A stretch of DNA of 64,000 bases, taken from Actinotalea caeni (lineage in GTDB: Bacteria > Actinomycetota > Actinomycetes > Actinomycetales > Beutenbergiaceae). The stretch lies in the NCBI RefSeq assembly GCF_009733795.1, contig NZ_WNXX01000017.1, positions 1-64,000 of the forward strand, given 5' to 3'. Numbering within the stretch: position 1 is the stretch's first letter; each line of letters starts with the position of its first letter. The notes below the pieces were generated by a model, which was given only the letters and a program-made list of their open reading frames with translations, was not told the DNA's origin and ran no database searches. The position numbers and the translations under genes were made by a program. Shown here piece after piece: positions 1,936 through 56,912 of this stretch.

Positions 1936-4644
1936 GTGTCGAAGATGTCCTGGTGGCGCCGGATCGCGATCGCTGTGGCGGCGGTCCTCGTCGTCGTCCT
2001 CGTCGGGGGCGCCATCACGCTGTTCTCCATCTCGCGCAGGGCGCTGCCGGACACCGGCGGCGAGTTCCGCGTCGAGGGTCTGCAGGGCGAGGTCCAGGTG
2101 GTGCGCGACGAGCGGGGCGTGCCGCAGATCTACGCGACCACCACGCACGACCTGTTCATGGCGCAGGGCTACGTGCACGCGCAGGACCGCTTCTTCGAGA
2201 TGGACCTGCGCCGCCACATCACCGCGGGCCGGCTGTCGGAGCTCGTCGGCGAGGCCGGCCTGAGCACCGACCGCGTCATCCGCACCCTCGGCTGGCGTCA
2301 CGTCGCCGAGCAGGAGTGGGCGCTGCTGTCGCAGGAGACGCGCACCTACCTGCAGTCCTACGCCGACGGCGTCAACGCCTACATCGCCTCCCGCGCCCCG
2401 AGCCAGCTGGCGCTGGAGTACACGATCCTCGACATGCAGTCCGCGGTCCCCGAGATCGAGCCGTGGGACCCGATCGACTCGCTCGCCTGGCTCAAGGCGA
2501 TGGCGTGGGACCTGCTCGGCAACTACGACGAGGAGCTGGGTCGCGCGGCCGTCTACGGGCAGGCGCAGGGGTACGGCGACGACGTCGCGCTCGACATGGT
2601 GCGCACGATCTTCCCGGCGTACCCGACCGAGCGGAACCTGCCGATCCTCACCACGCCGGAGCTGCTGGCCGCCAACGCCGAGCTCGAGGCGACCGAGCAG
2701 GCGGAGGCCGGCCCCGGCGCCTCGGACGACACGACCGCCACGCCCGGACCGCAGGGCCCGTCCCCCGACGCCGCGCTGCTCGCCCACGAGGCTCTCGCCG
2801 GCGCGGCAGCCGCCCTGGCCGCCGTCCCGCACCTGCTGGGCGAGGGGGACGGCATCGGGTCGAACAGCTGGGTCGTCTCGGGCGAGCACACGGCCTCGGG
2901 GCTGCCGCTGCTGGCGAACGACCCCCACCTCGGCATCTCGCAGCCGGGCATCTGGTACCAGAACGGCCTCCACTGCCGCGAGGTCGGGCCGGACTGCCCG
3001 TTCGACGTCGCCGGCTTCAGCTTCTCGGGGCTGCCCGGTGTCGTCATCGGTCACAACGCCGAGCTGGGCTGGGGCTTCACCAACATGGGCTCCGACGCCG
3101 TGGACCTGTTCATGGAGCGGGTCTACCCCGACGACACCTACCTGTACGACGGCGAGCGGCTCCCGCTGACCGTGCGGCAGGAGGTGATCGAGGTCAACGG
3201 CGGCTCGCCCGTGACGATCGAGGTCGCCGCGACCGAGCACGGCCCGATCGTCTCCGACGTCATCGGCGGCGTCCGGGGGGCGACCCAGGGCCCCGACCAC
3301 GAGGACCAGCCGCCGGGCGGTGTGAGCGGCTTCTCGGTCTCGATGCAGTGGACCGCGCTGCAGCCGGGCCGGACCGCCGACGCGATCTTCCTCCTCAACA
3401 CCGCCACGGACGCCGCCGACGTCGCCGCGGCCGCCGCCGCGTTCGAGGTGCCGACCCAGAACATCGTGTTCGCGACGACGTCGGGCGACATCGGCTACCA
3501 GGCACCGGGGTCGATCCCGGTGCGGGCCGACGTGCCCGGCTCCCCGGTGCCCACCGACGGCTCCTGGCCGCGACCGGGCTGGGACTCCCGCTACGACTGG
3601 CAGGGCTACGTCGACGCCGCCGACATGCCGCGCGCGCTCAACCCGCCGGAGGGCTTCATCGTCGCGGCCAACCAGGCCGTGCAGGCGCCGGGGACCGAGC
3701 CGTTCCTCACCGTCGACTACGACTACGGCTACCGGTCGCAGGCGATCCGCGACGCCCTGGAGGCGCGGATCGCGGACGGCGGCGAGCTCACGGTCGCGGA
3801 CATGAACGAGATCCAGCTGATCGACGCGAACCCGTACGCCGAACTGCTGGTGCCCGTGCTGCTCGAGATCCCGGTCAAGGACCCGTTCACCGGCGAGGAC
3901 GACGCCTTCACGCAGGAGGCGGTCGACCTGCTGGCCGACTGGGACATGCGCAACGACGTCGACTCGGCCGCGGCCGCCTACTTCTCGGCCGTGTGGGCGA
4001 ACCTGCTGCGGCTGACGTTCTGGGACCAGATGCCGGCGGAGCACCGGCCCTCGGGCGGTTCGCAGTGGCTCGAGGCGGTCCGTGCGCTGCTGGAGGACGA
4101 CGAGAGCCCCTGGTGGGACGACCGGGCGACGATCAACGTCGTCGAGCAGCGCGACCAGGTGCTCGCGGAGGCGCTGCGTGCGGCCCGTACCCAGCTGACG
4201 GTGCTGCTCGGCAAGGACCCCTCGGACTGGCGGTGGGGCGCGCTGCACGTCGCGGCACCGCAGCACCAGGTGCTGGGCGGCGAGACCGTGCCGGGCGCGA
4301 TCCGCAGCATCGTCAACCCGCACCAGGTCGGCGTCGCCGGCGGCAGCTCGATCGTCAACGCCAACGGGTGGGACGCCTCCGCCTGGGAGCTGGTCGACGG
4401 GGAGCCGACCTACCCGATCTTCACCGTGACGGCGGTGCCGTCGATGCGGATGGTGCTCGACCTCTCCGACTGGGACGCCTCGACCTGGGTGCAGCTCACC
4501 GGCAACTCCGGGCACCCGCTGTCGCAGCACTACGCCGACCAGCTGCACGCGTGGGCCGCGGGCGAGACCTACCCGTGGCCGTTCGGCGCGGAGGCGGTCG
4601 AGAAGGCCGGGCGGAGCACGCTGACGCTGCTGCCGAGGAGCTGA
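1936..4644 (+). CDS. Penicillin acylase family Ntn-hydrolase, membrane anchored
   Basis: This 902-residue S45-family Ntn-hydrolase is translated as a precursor that cleaves itself into two chains. An N-terminal hydrophobic segment (about 9-32) acts as signal or anchor, so the enzyme works outside the membrane. The alpha region holds the family block with YVHAQDRFFEMDLRR (about 75-90). The predicted cleavage is before Ser309 in GIGSNSWVVSGEHTASG, which supplies the N-terminal nucleophile, followed by LLANDPHLG. Later blocks include GWGFTNMGSDAVDLF and the C-terminal GNSGHPLSQHYADQL. Family members hydrolyse amides such as penicillins, acyl-homoserine lactones or other N-acyl compounds. The substrate cannot be told from sequence. 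It is transcribed alone, divergent from the FmdB gene. Confidence 0.93.
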   Translation: MSKMSWWRRIAIAVAAVLVVVLVGGAITLFSISRRALPDTGGEFRVEGLQGEVQVVRDERGVPQIYATTTHDLFMAQGYVHAQDRFFEMDLRRHITAGRLSELVGEAGLSTDRVIRTLGWRHVAEQEWALLSQETRTYLQSYADGVNAYIASRAPSQLALEYTILDMQSAVPEIEPWDPIDSLAWLKAMAWDLLGNYDEELGRAAVYGQAQGYGDDVALDMVRTIFPAYPTERNLPILTTPELLAANAELEATEQAEAGPGASDDTTATPGPQGPSPDAALLAHEALAGAAAALAAVPHLLGEGDGIGSNSWVVSGEHTASGLPLLANDPHLGISQPGIWYQNGLHCREVGPDCPFDVAGFSFSGLPGVVIGHNAELGWGFTNMGSDAVDLFMERVYPDDTYLYDGERLPLTVRQEVIEVNGGSPVTIEVAATEHGPIVSDVIGGVRGATQGPDHEDQPPGGVSGFSVSMQWTALQPGRTADAIFLLNTATDAADVAAAAAAFEVPTQNIVFATTSGDIGYQAPGSIPVRADVPGSPVPTDGSWPRPGWDSRYDWQGYVDAADMPRALNPPEGFIVAANQAVQAPGTEPFLTVDYDYGYRSQAIRDALEARIADGGELTVADMNEIQLIDANPYAELLVPVLLEIPVKDPFTGEDDAFTQEAVDLLADWDMRNDVDSAAAAYFSAVWANLLRLTFWDQMPAEHRPSGGSQWLEAVRALLEDDESPWWDDRATINVVEQRDQVLAEALRAARTQLTVLLGKDPSDWRWGALHVAAPQHQVLGGETVPGAIRSIVNPHQVGVAGGSSIVNANGWDASAWELVDGEPTYPIFTVTAVPSMRMVLDLSDWDASTWVQLTGNSGHPLSQHYADQLHAWAAGETYPWPFGAEAVEKAGRSTLTLLPRS

Positions 4645-6998: not shown

Positions 6999-7071
6999 GG
7001 GGCTATGGCGCAGTTGGTAGCGCGTCTCGTTCGCAATGAGAAGGTCGGGGGTTCGAGTCCCCCTAGCTCCA
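6999..7071 (+). tRNA. tRNA-Ala (anticodon CGC)
   Basis: A full 73-base cloverleaf: 7-bp acceptor stem with the G3-U70 pair that marks alanine tRNAs, 4-bp D stem, anticodon loop TTCGCAA with CGC at positions 34-36, 5-bp T stem closed around TTCGAGT, and discriminator A. The CCA end is not encoded. A strong terminator hairpin follows within 10 bases. Confidence 0.96.
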
Positions 7072-7137: not shown

Positions 7138-7209
7138 GCCGAGTTCGCACCGTCCCGCCGAGTTCGCACCGTGCACGGTCCGAACTCGGCACGACGGTGC
7201 GAACTCGGC
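7138..7209. repeat. Nested palindrome of four 16-base units
   Basis: Units at 7138-7153 and 7157-7172 read GCCGAGTTCGCACCGT. Units at 7175-7190 and 7194-7209 are its reverse complement (the third with one mismatch). Unit starts are 19 bases apart on both sides, so the whole 72-bp block is one near-perfect palindrome centred at 7173/7174. It sits between the tRNA-Ala terminator and the convergent PPOX gene. Confidence 0.9.
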
Positions 7210-14521: not shown

Positions 14522-16395
14522 ATGTGCAGCCGCCAGAACCAGTACGGCACCCACTGCCCGGTCCAGATCGGCCAGTAGAACGCCGACACCAGCAGCGCGG
14601 CCACCACGAGCGCGGCCGCGGCCCAGATGCCCGGTCGGCGCTCGCGCAGCGGTACCGAGCGCGGCCCCACCAGCTCGCCGATCCCGTAGGTGAGCGCGAG
14701 CACGACGTACGGCACGAACGCGACCGCGTAGAACGTGAAGATCGTGCGGTGGGAGTAGGCGAACCACGGCAGGTAGCCGCCCGCGTAGCCGGCGAGGATC
14801 GCCCAGGCCCGCCAGTCGTGCCGCCGGAACGCCGCCCACAGCACCAGCAGCAGCGCGAACGCGGCGCCCCACCAGATCACCGGGTTGCCGACCGAGAGGA
14901 TCGCGCCCGCGCAGCGATCGGCGCCGCACGTCTGCCACGCGCCGTCGGTCTCCTCGACCGAGCGCCACGCGAACGACGTCGGCCGGAGCTGGATCAGCCA
15001 GCCCGCCGGGTGCGACTGGTAGGTGTGCTCGCTCGTGAGGTTGTTGTGGAAGTCCCACATCCGCAGGTGGTACTCCCACCAGGAGTTCAGCCAGTCCGGC
15101 ATCCACGGACGCTCGGGCTGCTCGGCCGCCGCGTTGGTGGTCGCCGCCCACTGCCGCATGTAGCCGTCGGTGGTCGCCCACCACGGCAGCCACGTGAGCA
15201 CGTAGGTGAGGGCCGCGACCGGGACCGTGAGCAGGAAGGCGGGCACGCCGTCGCGCAGCGCGCCCGCGCCGACCCAGTAGCGGACCCCGACGGCGCGGCG
15301 CGCCGCGATCGTCCACGCCACCACCAGCAGCCCGAACGCGGCGAGGAAGTAGATGCCGGACCACTTGACGCCGCAGGCGAGCCCGAGCGCCACGCCCGCG
15401 ACCAGCAGCCACGGGCGGAACCCGACACGCGGCCCCCACGGGTCGTCGTAGCGGCCCTCCTCGGCGAGCTCGACGGCGGCCGCCGCGGCCAGCCGGCGCC
15501 GGTAGGAGTCGCGGTCGACCAGCACCGCCACGAACGCGACCAGGGCCCAGAACGACAGGAAGACGTCGAGGATCGAGATCCGGGACATCACGAGGTGGTT
15601 GCCGTCGATCGCCAGCAGCAGGCCGGCGGTCGCGCCGAGCGTCGTCGAGGCGAACAACCGACGCGCGGCACGCACGAGCAGCAGCACCGACAGCGCGCCG
15701 ACGACGGCGGCCGCGACACGCCACGACACCGGGTCGTTCGGGCCGAGCAGCCGCATCCCGGCGGCGATCATCCACTTGCCGACCGCGGGGTGGACGACGT
15801 AGTCGGCCTCGGTGCTGAGCTGGGAGTAGTCGCCGGCGGCGAACCGCTCGTTGGGCTGCCGGCTCTCGTCGCCGACCTCGTACTCGACCCAGTCGCCCTC
15901 GTAGCCGAGCTGCAGCAGCGACAGCGCCTGCTTGACGTAGTAGGTCTCGTCGAACACGAGTCGTCCGGGGCGTCCCAGGTACAGCAGCCGCAGCACCGCC
16001 GCGACCGCCGTGACGAGCAGGGTGACGACCCAGCCGGTGACGGCGGAGCCCGGCACCGGTCGCACGAGCCGGGACAGCAGGTCGGTCTCGATCTGCGTCC
16101 GGGTGCGCCCGGCGGTGACGACCGCCGGCGCCGCGAGCCGCTGCCGCAACGAGCCGAGGAGGTCCCGGGGGCGGCGCGGGGCGCTGGTGCGCGTGTGGCG
16201 GCTGACGCCGACGCGGCGGCGCACGGGGGGCGAGGCGGTCGCCTCGGGGGTCGTGGTCACGTCGGTCGCGAGACCGGTGTCGGTGCGCGTGCTCGGCGCG
16301 CCCGCGGCGGTTGCTCCCGCGCTCCCGCCGCCGTCGGGTTGCGGGGCCCACGCCTCGTCGGGGGACGCACGCACGTCGTCGTCGGCTCCCCTCAC
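14500..16395 (-). CDS. pmt: PMT-family protein O-mannosyltransferase (GT39)
   Basis: This integral membrane enzyme transfers mannose from polyprenyl-phosphate-mannose to secreted proteins as they are exported. The product of about 631 residues has a disordered N-terminal cytoplasmic region, about eleven hydrophobic helices, and the GT39 catalytic Asp-Glu in the first external loop (RLVFDETYYVKQA). Other family blocks are VHPAVGKWMIAAGM, SRISILDVFLSFW and KWSGIYFLAAFG. The C-terminal four-helix part matches bacterial Pmt (YxPWFxYSHRTIFTFYAV...). The GTG at 16395 is chosen because the minus-strand -10 box TACACT lies seven bases upstream; further upstream the frame runs into the neighbouring terminator. 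It often sits next to rsmI in actinomycetes; here one gene (DoxX) separates them. Confidence 0.92.
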   Translation of the reverse strand: MRGADDDVRASPDEAWAPQPDGGGSAGATAAGAPSTRTDTGLATDVTTTPEATASPPVRRRVGVSRHTRTSAPRRPRDLLGSLRQRLAAPAVVTAGRTRTQIETDLLSRLVRPVPGSAVTGWVVTLLVTAVAAVLRLLYLGRPGRLVFDETYYVKQALSLLQLGYEGDWVEYEVGDESRQPNERFAAGDYSQLSTEADYVVHPAVGKWMIAAGMRLLGPNDPVSWRVAAAVVGALSVLLLVRAARRLFASTTLGATAGLLLAIDGNHLVMSRISILDVFLSFWALVAFVAVLVDRDSYRRRLAAAAAVELAEEGRYDDPWGPRVGFRPWLLVAGVALGLACGVKWSGIYFLAAFGLLVVAWTIAARRAVGVRYWVGAGALRDGVPAFLLTVPVAALTYVLTWLPWWATTDGYMRQWAATTNAAAEQPERPWMPDWLNSWWEYHLRMWDFHNNLTSEHTYQSHPAGWLIQLRPTSFAWRSVEETDGAWQTCGADRCAGAILSVGNPVIWWGAAFALLLVLWAAFRRHDWRAWAILAGYAGGYLPWFAYSHRTIFTFYAVAFVPYVVLALTYGIGELVGPRSVPLRERRPGIWAAAALVVAALLVSAFYWPIWTGQWVPYWFWRLHMLLPSWV

Positions 16396-17190: not shown

Positions 17191-17278
17191 TGTCAACCCG
17201 CTTCTGCCCCCTCGGACGGTTTCAACCCACTTCTGCCCCGGCGCGATCGGCGGCGTCGGGGGCAGGAGTGGGTTGAAA
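17191..17278. repeat. Intergenic 20-base repeat, cluster A (3 copies)
   Basis: Copies at 17191-17210 (TGTCAACCCGCTTCTGCCCC) and 17220-17239 (TTTCAACCCACTTCTGCCCC) are direct. A copy at 17259-17278 is inverted. The second and third form a 22-bp hairpin with one mismatch and a loop of about 18 bases. The same unit recurs at 56101-56331. Confidence 0.9.
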
Positions 17279-55308: not shown

Positions 55309-55986
55309 CTAGCTCCGGATCGGGCCGAGGTCGACCGGTTCGACCTCGGCGTTGTAGCGGTAGAGGCGCGCGGGGCGGTGGGCGCCGCCGGTGCGCATCT
55401 GGTCGGTGGGGACGACGGCGCCGTCGGCCTCGACCTGCCGCCGGAAGTTCGCGGGGTCGAGCCGGGTCTGCCGCACGATCTCGTGCACCTCGCGCAGCTC
55501 GCGCAGGGTGAATGTCTCGCCGAGGAGGTTGTGGGCGATACGGCTGTAGGAGACCTTGGTGCGCAGCCGCCACAGCGCGTACTCGACGACGAGGTTGTGG
55601 TCGAACGCCAGCCGCGGCAGGTCGTCGGCAGGCAGCCAGCGCACGTTCTGCCGTGGTGCCGCGGAGCCGACCTCGTCGGCGCGCACGAGCGCCCAGTAGA
55701 CGACCGAGACGACGCGGCGGCCGTCGGGGGAGCGGTCCGGGTCGCCGAAGGTGTACATCTGCTCGAGGTAGGCCGGCTCGAGACCGGTGGTGTCGGCGAG
55801 CGTGCGGCGGGCGGCGTCCTCGAGGCTCTCGTCGCCGAGCGGCCCGCCCGGCAGCGCCCACATGCCGTCGTAGGGCTCGCGGGTGCGCACGACAAGCGGC
55901 AGCGACAGCACCGGCCGCTCGGCGGAGCCCTCGCGGCGCAGCGCGAAGATCACCGTCGAGACGGCGACCTCGGGTGCTGCGGTCAT
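55309..55986 (-). CDS. nrtR: NrtR: Nudix-domain transcriptional regulator of NAD synthesis
   Basis: NrtR senses ADP-ribose-type NAD metabolites through a Nudix-like domain and represses NAD genes. The 225-residue product has an N-terminal Nudix fold (TREPYDGMWALPGGPLGDESLEDAARRTLADTTGL, a degenerate Nudix box as expected for a non-hydrolase) and a C-terminal winged-helix domain (YSRIAHNLLGETFTLRELREVHEIVRQTRLDPANFRRQVEADGAVV). The ATG at 55986 has AAGGAG eight bases upstream, which rejects the TTG 21 bases further up. It is the first gene of the nadABC run and has palindromes just upstream. Confidence 0.93.
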   Translation of the reverse strand: MTAAPEVAVSTVIFALRREGSAERPVLSLPLVVRTREPYDGMWALPGGPLGDESLEDAARRTLADTTGLEPAYLEQMYTFGDPDRSPDGRRVVSVVYWALVRADEVGSAAPRQNVRWLPADDLPRLAFDHNLVVEYALWRLRTKVSYSRIAHNLLGETFTLRELREVHEIVRQTRLDPANFRRQVEADGAVVPTDQMRTGGAHRPARLYRYNAEVEPVDLGPIRS

Positions 55987-56001
55987 CGCCGGACTCCTTA
56001 G

Positions 56002-56014
56002 GGTCAATGTGACC
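56002..56014. promoter_or_regulatory. Candidate NrtR operator 1
   Basis: GGTCA-ATG-TGACC is a perfect 5-bp palindrome with a three-base centre, 16 bases upstream of the nrtR ATG. It fits NrtR sites, which centre on GTCA...TGAC. Confidence 0.55.
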
Positions 56015-56100: not shown

Positions 56101-56331
56101 GTTTCAGCCCACTTCTGCCCCTCCGCCGGTTCAACCGCTTCTGCGCGGTCCGGTGCCCCTCGTCCCCGTTCCTGGCCCGCCGTCGGACAAGGTCGATTCG
56201 GGCGTCGGCTCGTGTACGACCGGAGTTGGTGCTGGTGCCCGCTCGGGCGGGGGCGGAAGCGGGTCGAAACCTCGGGAGGGGGCAGGAGTGGGTTGAAACC
56301 TCGGGAGGAGGGGGGCAGGAGTGGGTTGAAA
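56101..56331. repeat. Intergenic 20-base repeat, cluster B (about 5 copies)
   Basis: Forward copies: 56101-56121 (GTTTCAGCCCACTTCTGCCCC) and a degenerate one at 56128-56147. Inverted copies: 56250-56270 (diverged), 56279-56298 and 56312-56331, both reading GGGGCAGGAGTGGGTTGAAA and identical to the inverted copy at 17259-17278. The last three are direct repeats 29 and 33 bases apart, linked by CCTCGGGAGG. The cluster fills the divergent gap between nrtR and the lipoprotein gene. Confidence 0.92.
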
Positions 56332-56351: not shown

Positions 56352-56357
56352 TACCAT
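56352..56357 (+). promoter_or_regulatory. -10 box of the lipoprotein gene (leaderless type)
   Basis: TACCAT ends six bases before the GTG at 56364. Confidence 0.5.
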
Positions 56358-56363
56358 GTCCGG

Positions 56364-56912
56364 GTGGCTCGACTCGCATCTCGTCTGACGCACCGTGTCC
56401 TCGCCCCGCTCGCGGGGCTCGCGCTCGCCGGAGCGCTCATGACGGCGTGCGCGCCCGCCCCGGGCGCAGCCGCGACCGTCGACGGCCGGCCGGTCGGGGA
56501 GAACGCGGTCGCGACCGTGGTCGACGAGCTGGCGCCGTACTTCGGCGGCCAGCTGACGCCGACCGACGCGCTGCGCCTGCTCATCACGGCGCCGACCTAC
56601 ATCGACGTCGCCGCCGAGGCGGGTGTCGGCCTGTCCGAGCAGGACGCGGAAGAGGTGCTGCTCTCGCTCAACGAGTCGGTCGGCTCCGAGCGCACCGAGT
56701 TCAGCGACGCCTCGCTGAGCGTGGTGCGCCGCGTGGTCGCCGAGACGACGTTCGCCAGCTCCGAGGAGGGTGCCGAGCTCGCCGACGAGGCCGCGCAGCG
56801 CGTCGCGGACCTCGACGTCACCGTGAGCCCGCGCTACGGCGAGTGGGACGGCTCCGCCGTCTCCTTCAGCTTCCCCGAGTGGATCGAGCAGCCGGCGCCC
56901 GAAGCCGCGTGA
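56364..56912 (+). CDS. SurA-N-like putative lipoprotein
   Basis: The 182-residue protein has a basic N-terminus, a hydrophobic signal (about 10-25) and a lipobox ending ALMTAC, then ATVDGRPVGENAVATVVDELAPYFGG and helical segments resembling the N-terminal domain of SurA/peptidyl-prolyl isomerase lipoproteins, but no parvulin domain. It should be anchored outside the membrane; a chaperone-like role is inferred from the fold only. The GTG follows a -10 box by six bases. Its TGA overlaps the mazG start (GTGA), the usual actinobacterial neighbour. Confidence 0.75.
   Translation: MARLASRLTHRVLAPLAGLALAGALMTACAPAPGAAATVDGRPVGENAVATVVDELAPYFGGQLTPTDALRLLITAPTYIDVAAEAGVGLSEQDAEEVLLSLNESVGSERTEFSDASLSVVRRVVAETTFASSEEGAELADEAAQRVADLDVTVSPRYGEWDGSAVSFSFPEWIEQPAPEAA

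Follow-up and report, generated by a model that had tools for sequence, protein, structure and literature searches.

A tandem array of short repeats fills the gap between nrtR and a lipoprotein gene in the 64,000-nucleotide stretch of DNA analysed here (the window; G+C, 73.7%), raising the question of whether such an array is kept for what it does to nearby genes or landed there as one copy of a dispersed element. We consider it likely that the array is an insertion of a REP-like, non-autonomous intergenic repeat whose driver is a nuclease combining an AbiEi-HTH with a Vsr-like DUF559 domain.

Repeat copies between nrtR and the lipoprotein gene

The array spans 56102-56331 and comprises about five copies, two on the minus strand, one of them degenerate, and three on the plus strand. 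The pattern scan located an inverted core copy at 56102..56119 (-; GGCAGAAGTGGGCTGAAA, 1 mismatch) and plus-strand copies at 56252..56269 (GGCGGAAGCGGGTCGAAA), 56281..56298 and 56314..56331, the latter two identical to the consensus; the degenerate inverted copy at ~56129..56145 (-), in which CCGCTTCTGC replaces CCCACTTCTGC, was missed by the scan and read by eye. The outermost plus-strand copy is followed by GC where inner copies usually have CC. A sequence-only reading of this DNA had described about five copies, three of them direct at 29- and 33-base steps and joined by a linker, and scan and inspection bear this out in full, with starts at 56252, 56281 and 56314, steps of 29 and 33, and the linker CCTCGGGAGG. 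It had also placed these copies in one family with a second cluster, termed A, and the scan indeed finds the same core there, in two inverted copies at 17191..17208 and 17220..17237 (-) and a direct copy at 17261..17278 (+). Across the 64 kb scanned, seven core matches occur at no more than 3 mismatches vs 0.05 expected by chance. The left copies of cluster B (the nrtR array) are inverted relative to the right copies, an arrangement typical of the family. An Rfam covariance-model search of the window returned two tRNAs only at the gathering score and left the repeats unmatched. Another inverted cluster lies at 7138-7209, adjoining a tRNA at 6999-7071, with GGTGCGAACTCGGC twice on each strand; this sequence is absent from the 35 host loci described below and from 256 kb of Pseudactinotalea suaedae, and the cluster is possibly a further repeat of this kind.

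Cluster B is flanked on the left by nrtR (NUDIX and NrtR_WHD domains; -, 55309..56007, or 55309-55986 according to the codon-usage gene caller) and on the right by the lipoprotein gene (+, 56364..56912), which starts with GTG and has homologues in all 10 of the 10 family genomes searched. The array had been said to end 20 bases before a -10 box, and its last base, 56331, does lie 20 nt before TACCAT (+, 56352..56357), with the GTG start 7 nt beyond. The box itself is a more divided matter: a consensus promoter scan of the nrtR/lipoprotein gap found no match, TACCAT included, and P. suaedae and P. terrae, which lack an array in this gap, both have TAC[CG]AT at the corresponding position. Because of this conservation in two array-less species, TACCAT and the GTG start plausibly form a leaderless promoter. 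It is possible that the array influences this promoter, an effect better seen as a by-product of where the copy landed.

The repeat family in the host genome

A genome-wide census, which the earlier reading had proposed, covered the 4,001,341 bases (49 contigs) of the host assembly and found 128 copies of the 18-base core at no more than 2 mismatches, 64 on each strand, and 0 copies of the same pattern read backward. Among the matches listed, 35 stretches cover 100 of the 128 copies, and within these stretches 155 copies are found at no more than 4 mismatches. Same-strand steps there are exactly 29 in 72 of 94 cases, and the strand changes from minus to plus 21 times and from plus to minus twice; the order is reversed at two sites (L034 and L054), and seven sites (L033, L035, L039, L042, L046, L062 and L063) have a single orientation. 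The unit is thus 29 bp long and consists of a conserved 23-bp site, GGGGGCAGAAGTGGGTTGAAACC, and 6 variable bp: over the 72 units spaced by 29, conservation covers positions 1-20 and 27-29 (commonest base at least 71%), and the six positions between them vary (at most 54%). Units run head to tail, and a typical element is made of two inverted arrays with the G-rich strand outwards. Spacers are 80% alike inside an array vs 60% between clusters. The variable part of 6 bp, the inverted order and the similarity of spacers within an array rule out a CRISPR array.

The outermost units differ from the inner ones. The two bases after the unit are CC in 20 of 48 outermost vs 78 of 95 inner host units (p 2.4e-6), and the same holds for the type i repeats of P. 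suaedae introduced below (8 of 21 outermost vs 30 of 36 inner units, p 0.001), as a defined element end would give. Inspection for a target-site duplication found none. Copies of the host motif at one locus (L057) are accompanied, at ~3060-3140 and beyond 3250, by another inverted motif built around AACTCGTACG/AGCTCGTACGGTGCACGCTACGAG.

Placement relative to genes

The 35 host sites scored, drawn from the matches listed, fall into 10 convergent, 21 tandem and 4 divergent gaps. Gene borders were taken from our own codon-usage gene caller; in these statistics L045 is counted twice and L044 left out, four of the 35 consist of one copy only, and at L064 the copy overlaps a gene predicted by the caller. 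Arrays hug stop codons: 26 of 41 sides that face a 3' end start 0-5 bp from the stop codon, vs a mean of 12.2 and a maximum of 20 in 10,000 trials of uniform placement in the same gaps, and among the 29 sides next to a gene's 5' end the count within 6 bp is 0. For the family as a whole, the promoter reading is not borne out. The sequence-only reading had assigned the clusters to divergent promoter gaps, which is accurate for A and B and fails as a family rule, since only 4 of 35 sites are divergent; both clusters in the window are exceptional divergent cases, which explains why its author saw promoters.

Sister species carry other motifs

The two sister genomes, P. suaedae KACC 17839 (G001) and P. 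terrae KACC 16542 (G002), contain no copy of the host motif at 1 mismatch or fewer. A two-copy pattern of the motif is absent from 23 other genomes of the family and has 0 matches in GTDB r220 contigs, among which the host's own genome may be left out; among 197 other genomes of the order, the motif occurs once each in four and its backward control once each in two. When k-mers were counted without bias over 256 kb of P. suaedae, other repeats emerged, type i (GGACGGAATCGTGTTGAAACC) and type ii (GGTCGAAAGTGCGTTGAAATC). Type i is found in P. suaedae and type ii in both sisters, as inverted arrays with a 28-bp period; in the 20 loci read, these arrays mostly begin just behind stop codons, and the nine tandem pairs in P. 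terrae all belong to type ii. Both sisters thus share the array architecture of the host genome, but with different motifs. A combined type i and ii pattern matched 40 stretches of GTDB contigs, 34 of them from Pseudactinotalea, and a looser tail pattern run on 396 genomes of the order was frequent only in that genus (36, 57 and 9 matches), with one or two matches in eight other genomes and one each in three for the backward control.

The orthologous gaps of both sisters have neither cluster A nor cluster B, and that of P. suaedae has no copy corresponding to L050. The family therefore turns over. A tandem repeat of another kind occurs in P. terrae (C8, L101, ~15028-15406, minus strand), where six copies of a 72-bp unit carry CCGCCCCGTGGCCGCTCA.

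A nuclease gene enclosed by arrays

One of the two largest host sets among the matches listed, with 10 copies, is L045, where left and right arrays 1.1 kb apart enclose a gene of 327 aa (G000:C22:100719-101699). Since its product probably cuts DNA, the enclosure of this gene by the repeats suggests that they are spread through the genome by the protein, which we regard as probably the cognate protein of the host repeats. In P. suaedae, a homologue has type i arrays on both sides, with five copies on one and three to four on the other; its neighbours, which we take to be priA and a beta-galactosidase gene, differ from those in L045. A second P. suaedae driver gene sits between type ii arrays, and arrays of a new motif, here termed type iii, enclose a second host driver (C45:29746); these last two genes share one locus, at which driver and motif have both changed between the species, the drivers being 56% identical and the neighbours 79% and 74%. 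In another genus (G120 and G106), driver genes lie between inverted copies of GTAGCCANATCGACGTNNGATTTC. In all 6 of the 6 closest loci (two in the host, two in P. suaedae, G120 and G106), the gene is therefore inside inverted arrays. A TAG in the second host driver, at query position 299, falls past the conserved domain and is taken as the end of that gene; for six other drivers with reported stops, none was seen inside the aligned part.

If these genes drive the repeats, a motif read from the flanks of a gene should be found throughout its host genome, and it is for both type iii and GTAGCCANATCGACGTNNGATTTC. Type iii, whose motif was derived from gene flanks alone, occurs 119 times in the host genome, 3 times in P. 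suaedae and 0 times in P. terrae, and its backward control gave 0. A search for the GTAGCCANATCGACGTNNGATTTC flank motif gave 19 copies in G120, of which 4 stand at the gene, and 25 in G106, of which 3 do, vs 0, 0, 1, 1, 5 and 10 in six congeners with no driver at E 1e-20; the motif is absent from the three Pseudactinotalea genomes, and its backward control gave 0 in every genome. The congener with 10 copies (G190) had no driver at this threshold among the first five candidates scored per genome, and P. terrae keeps a few type ii arrays although its best driver match is a distant one (E 5e-10, 29% identity). Loss of the driver would explain both cases, and so would a weaker coupling. Type iii constitutes a second repeat family of the host (e.g., C8:73057-73334), with no copy in the window.

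Profile searches match the host driver to AbiEi_4 and to DUF559/REase_MTES_1575. Alignment A1 holds 18 of 29 drivers (left out were seven with reported stops, three with stops in the chosen frame and one near-duplicate); MTES_1575, a Vsr-like REase, is matched by all 18 at E<=0.01, DUF559 by 17 of 18 and AbiEi_4 by 10 of 18. At the curated cut-off of the DUF559 and MTES_1575 models, the host driver passes DUF559 only. The PADLOC AbiEi models match 4 of 4 drivers tested, and an NCBIfam search of four drivers gave 0 matches. Residues E196, D228 and D241 are invariant among the aligned drivers, and E239 is nearly so. The nuclease part matches the structures 3hrl ("Endonuclease-Like Protein", E 8.1e-11) and 3r3p ("Mobile intron protein", E 4.6e-4), the latter presumably I-Bth0305I. 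MTES_1575 is described as having a Vsr REase fold (PMC3710099), and AbiEi-family proteins are described as binding 23-bp repeats set in inverted order (PMC7319586). These three features, namely binding of inverted 23-bp sites by AbiEi relatives, the nuclease matches and the conserved acidic residues, are why we propose recognition, nicking or cutting, and repair-dependent copying.

Proposed mechanism and alternative explanations

We observe the association of gene and repeat, and we infer binding, cutting and mobilisation. The HTH half of the driver would bind the 23-bp units, and the nuclease half would nick or cut at or beside them. Repair or replication from the break could then copy array segments within the locus, by which an array would grow, and the same copying may also carry segments to new intergenic places. 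Copies would survive mostly just behind stop codons, where they are presumably least harmful. Once transcribed, inverted arrays may form hairpins in the mRNA and act as terminators or stabilisers, and since a gap filled by such arrays folds as one long hairpin, a secondary role in termination is plausible. The driver could also be a passenger of the repeats, or the adjoining arrays could be its own operators.

It is unlikely that the arrays are instead binding sites of a transcription factor acting on nearby promoters. The 23-bp unit length and the inverted order do resemble AbiEi operators as described in PMC7319586, clusters A and B do lie in divergent gaps, and cluster B ends 20 nt before a -10-like box that the sister species keep; yet regulatory sites would sit poorly with a family that is divergent at so few sites and avoids 5' ends, with the absence of clusters A, B and L050 from the orthologous gaps compared, and with the lack of a match in the promoter scan of the very gap concerned. 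The preference for 3' ends would fit arrays that are bidirectional terminators or mRNA 3' stabilisers maintained for that function, a reading that we hold to be quite unlikely. A convergent gap filled by arrays folds into a single long hairpin (z -11.5), cluster B folds with z -3.9, and by inspection transcripts entering from a neighbouring gene read the C-rich, G-poor strand, like a Rho-loading site. Seven single-orientation sites, four sites in divergent gaps and the change of motif between sister species argue against such maintenance, which also leaves the tie to the nuclease gene unexplained; termination may be a secondary use.

Growth by slippage and recombination alone, with the nuclease gene as a chance neighbour, would account for the greater similarity of spacers within an array than between clusters (0.80 vs 0.60), as local duplication gives. 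Such growth cannot put the same core at ~35 separate places, and chance is hard to reconcile with a driver inside its own motif in every one of the closest loci and with two flank-read motifs that proved to be genome-wide, so we regard this explanation as very improbable. Carriage as phage or plasmid cargo was rejected: plasmid and phage searches with the driver gave no match at 1e-10, and the core occurs in 9 viral stretches with one match each. A REP-like repeat dispersed by the AbiEi-HTH/DUF559 nuclease thus remains our preferred explanation of the nrtR array.

Comparison with known systems

The only enzymes known to us to be dedicated to REP-like repeats are those of the RAYT type. Like REP/BIME elements and RAYT genes as portrayed in PMC2817692 and PMC3733652, the present system has repeats that are species-specific, intergenic, present in tens to hundreds of copies, frequently inverted and located behind genes, in convergent or tandem gaps. 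In both, a nuclease gene lies between two inverted copies of a repeat that abounds in its genome, the gene evolves faster than its neighbours, and repeat abundance tracks the gene. RAYT genes are reported to evolve rapidly (PMC2817692), and REPs to adjoin 3' ends in convergent gaps (PMC3733652); in the host genome, 31 of 35 sites are non-divergent and the 3'-facing sides cluster within 6 bp of stop codons, as counted above. The enzymes, however, are unrelated in kind, theirs being a Y1 HUH transposase and the driver here an AbiEi-HTH joined to a Vsr-like DUF559 nuclease; the Y1 transposase model PF01797 has 0 matches in the host genome, while 5 of 14 control genomes match it. Pseudactinotalea units also differ in forming tandem arrays of 28/29 bp, and four of these units fold no better than shuffles, unlike a palindromic stem-loop. 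By inspection, no GTAG/GTGG or CGTC head stands at the start of the host, type i, type ii or type iii units; the motif of the other genus (G120/G106) begins with GTAG. Our host is an actinobacterium, whereas the 2010 study (PMC2817692) reported RAYT-REP pairs only from gammaproteobacteria and the word "Actinobacteria" is absent from the main text of the 2013 survey (PMC3733652). The system works alike but fails three defining features (Y1 transposase, palindrome and head), and we have therefore not filed it under REP/RAYT.

Two further systems resemble single domains of the driver. Autoregulation by AbiEi/Rv2827c antitoxins involves a related wHTH (AbiEi_4 and the PADLOC AbiEi models) and 23-bp repeats in inverted sets (PMC7319586), matching the 23-bp conserved part of the unit here; unlike those antitoxins, the driver has a nuclease as its second domain, and its repeats are genome-wide instead of being confined to its own promoter. 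The Vsr-like nucleases, which include EDxHD homing endonucleases such as I-Bth0305I, resemble the driver through the matches of its nuclease part to 3hrl and 3r3p. A homing endonuclease gene is copied into one cognate site, whereas here many short arrays without a gene are dispersed.

Related genes across the order

A homologue at E <=1e-20 is present in 27 of 396 genomes of the order, with the first five candidates per genome scored; 30 of the 39 driver matches had loci, and L166 was left out of the flank test. Judged against 451 control ORFs, 12 of 29 loci (5 of the six closest and 7 of the remaining 23) exceed the 99th percentile for resemblance between the two flanks of the gene, and 16 of 29 exceed the 95th; in a first flank test, no alignment was obtained for L173, L183 and L186, and L184 proved too short. 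Strong palindromes, some found by eye, stand on both sides of several of these order-level driver genes, and the repeats beside two related genes of other families form strong hairpins (L209, z -10.8; L216, z -8.7). Motif sampling in 400 kb each of three genomes yielded 6 matches in 2 clusters for G218, 2 sites for G241 and 1 match for one of three patterns for G267, with 1 match of the G218 pattern in P. suaedae; some patterns had no matches in the G218, G241 and G267 stretches. Sampling in these three genomes gives supportive but thin backing to the tie between driver and repeat.

On balance, we favour the broader reading that AbiEi-HTH/Vsr-like DUF559 nucleases of actinobacteria disperse REP-like repeats of their own and constitute an undescribed mobile class, in which HTH and repeat would diverge together and give each species its own repeats; these would take the form of tandem arrays in Pseudactinotalea and of palindromes in other families. 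A literature search of open-access articles, judged by title and the beginning of the abstract, found no tie of DUF559, MTES_1575 or AbiEi-DUF559 proteins to genomic repeats. If the reading is correct, a second, unrelated class of enzymes bears the same genomic signature as the RAYTs, and systems of driver plus repeat arose more than once; REPs with a CGTC head apparently have no dedicated enzyme, according to the 2013 survey (PMC3733652). It would also suggest a function for DUF559, a domain of unknown function, and explain the species-specific repeats of high-GC actinobacteria, which are easily mistaken for operators. Since the motif to be expected can be read off from each driver, assays of binding and cutting would put the idea to a direct test.

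Two observations on driver genes and their relatives stand apart from this argument. A DnaA-box-like sequence, T[GTA]TCCACA, occurs on the sense strand upstream of 16 of 29 drivers and downstream of 0 of 29 (e.g., L045 at ~3230-3275, L190 and L191), with a background of 0.0013 per stretch in host loci. More distant DUF559 genes of P. terrae, the host and P. suaedae (L195, L196, L197 and L198) appear by eye to lie beside repeats of their own, such as CAACCGGTTG and ATTCTGCCC; among weaker DUF559 relatives, 1 of 10 exceeded the threshold of the earlier flank test, a formal test that is weak for such relatives.
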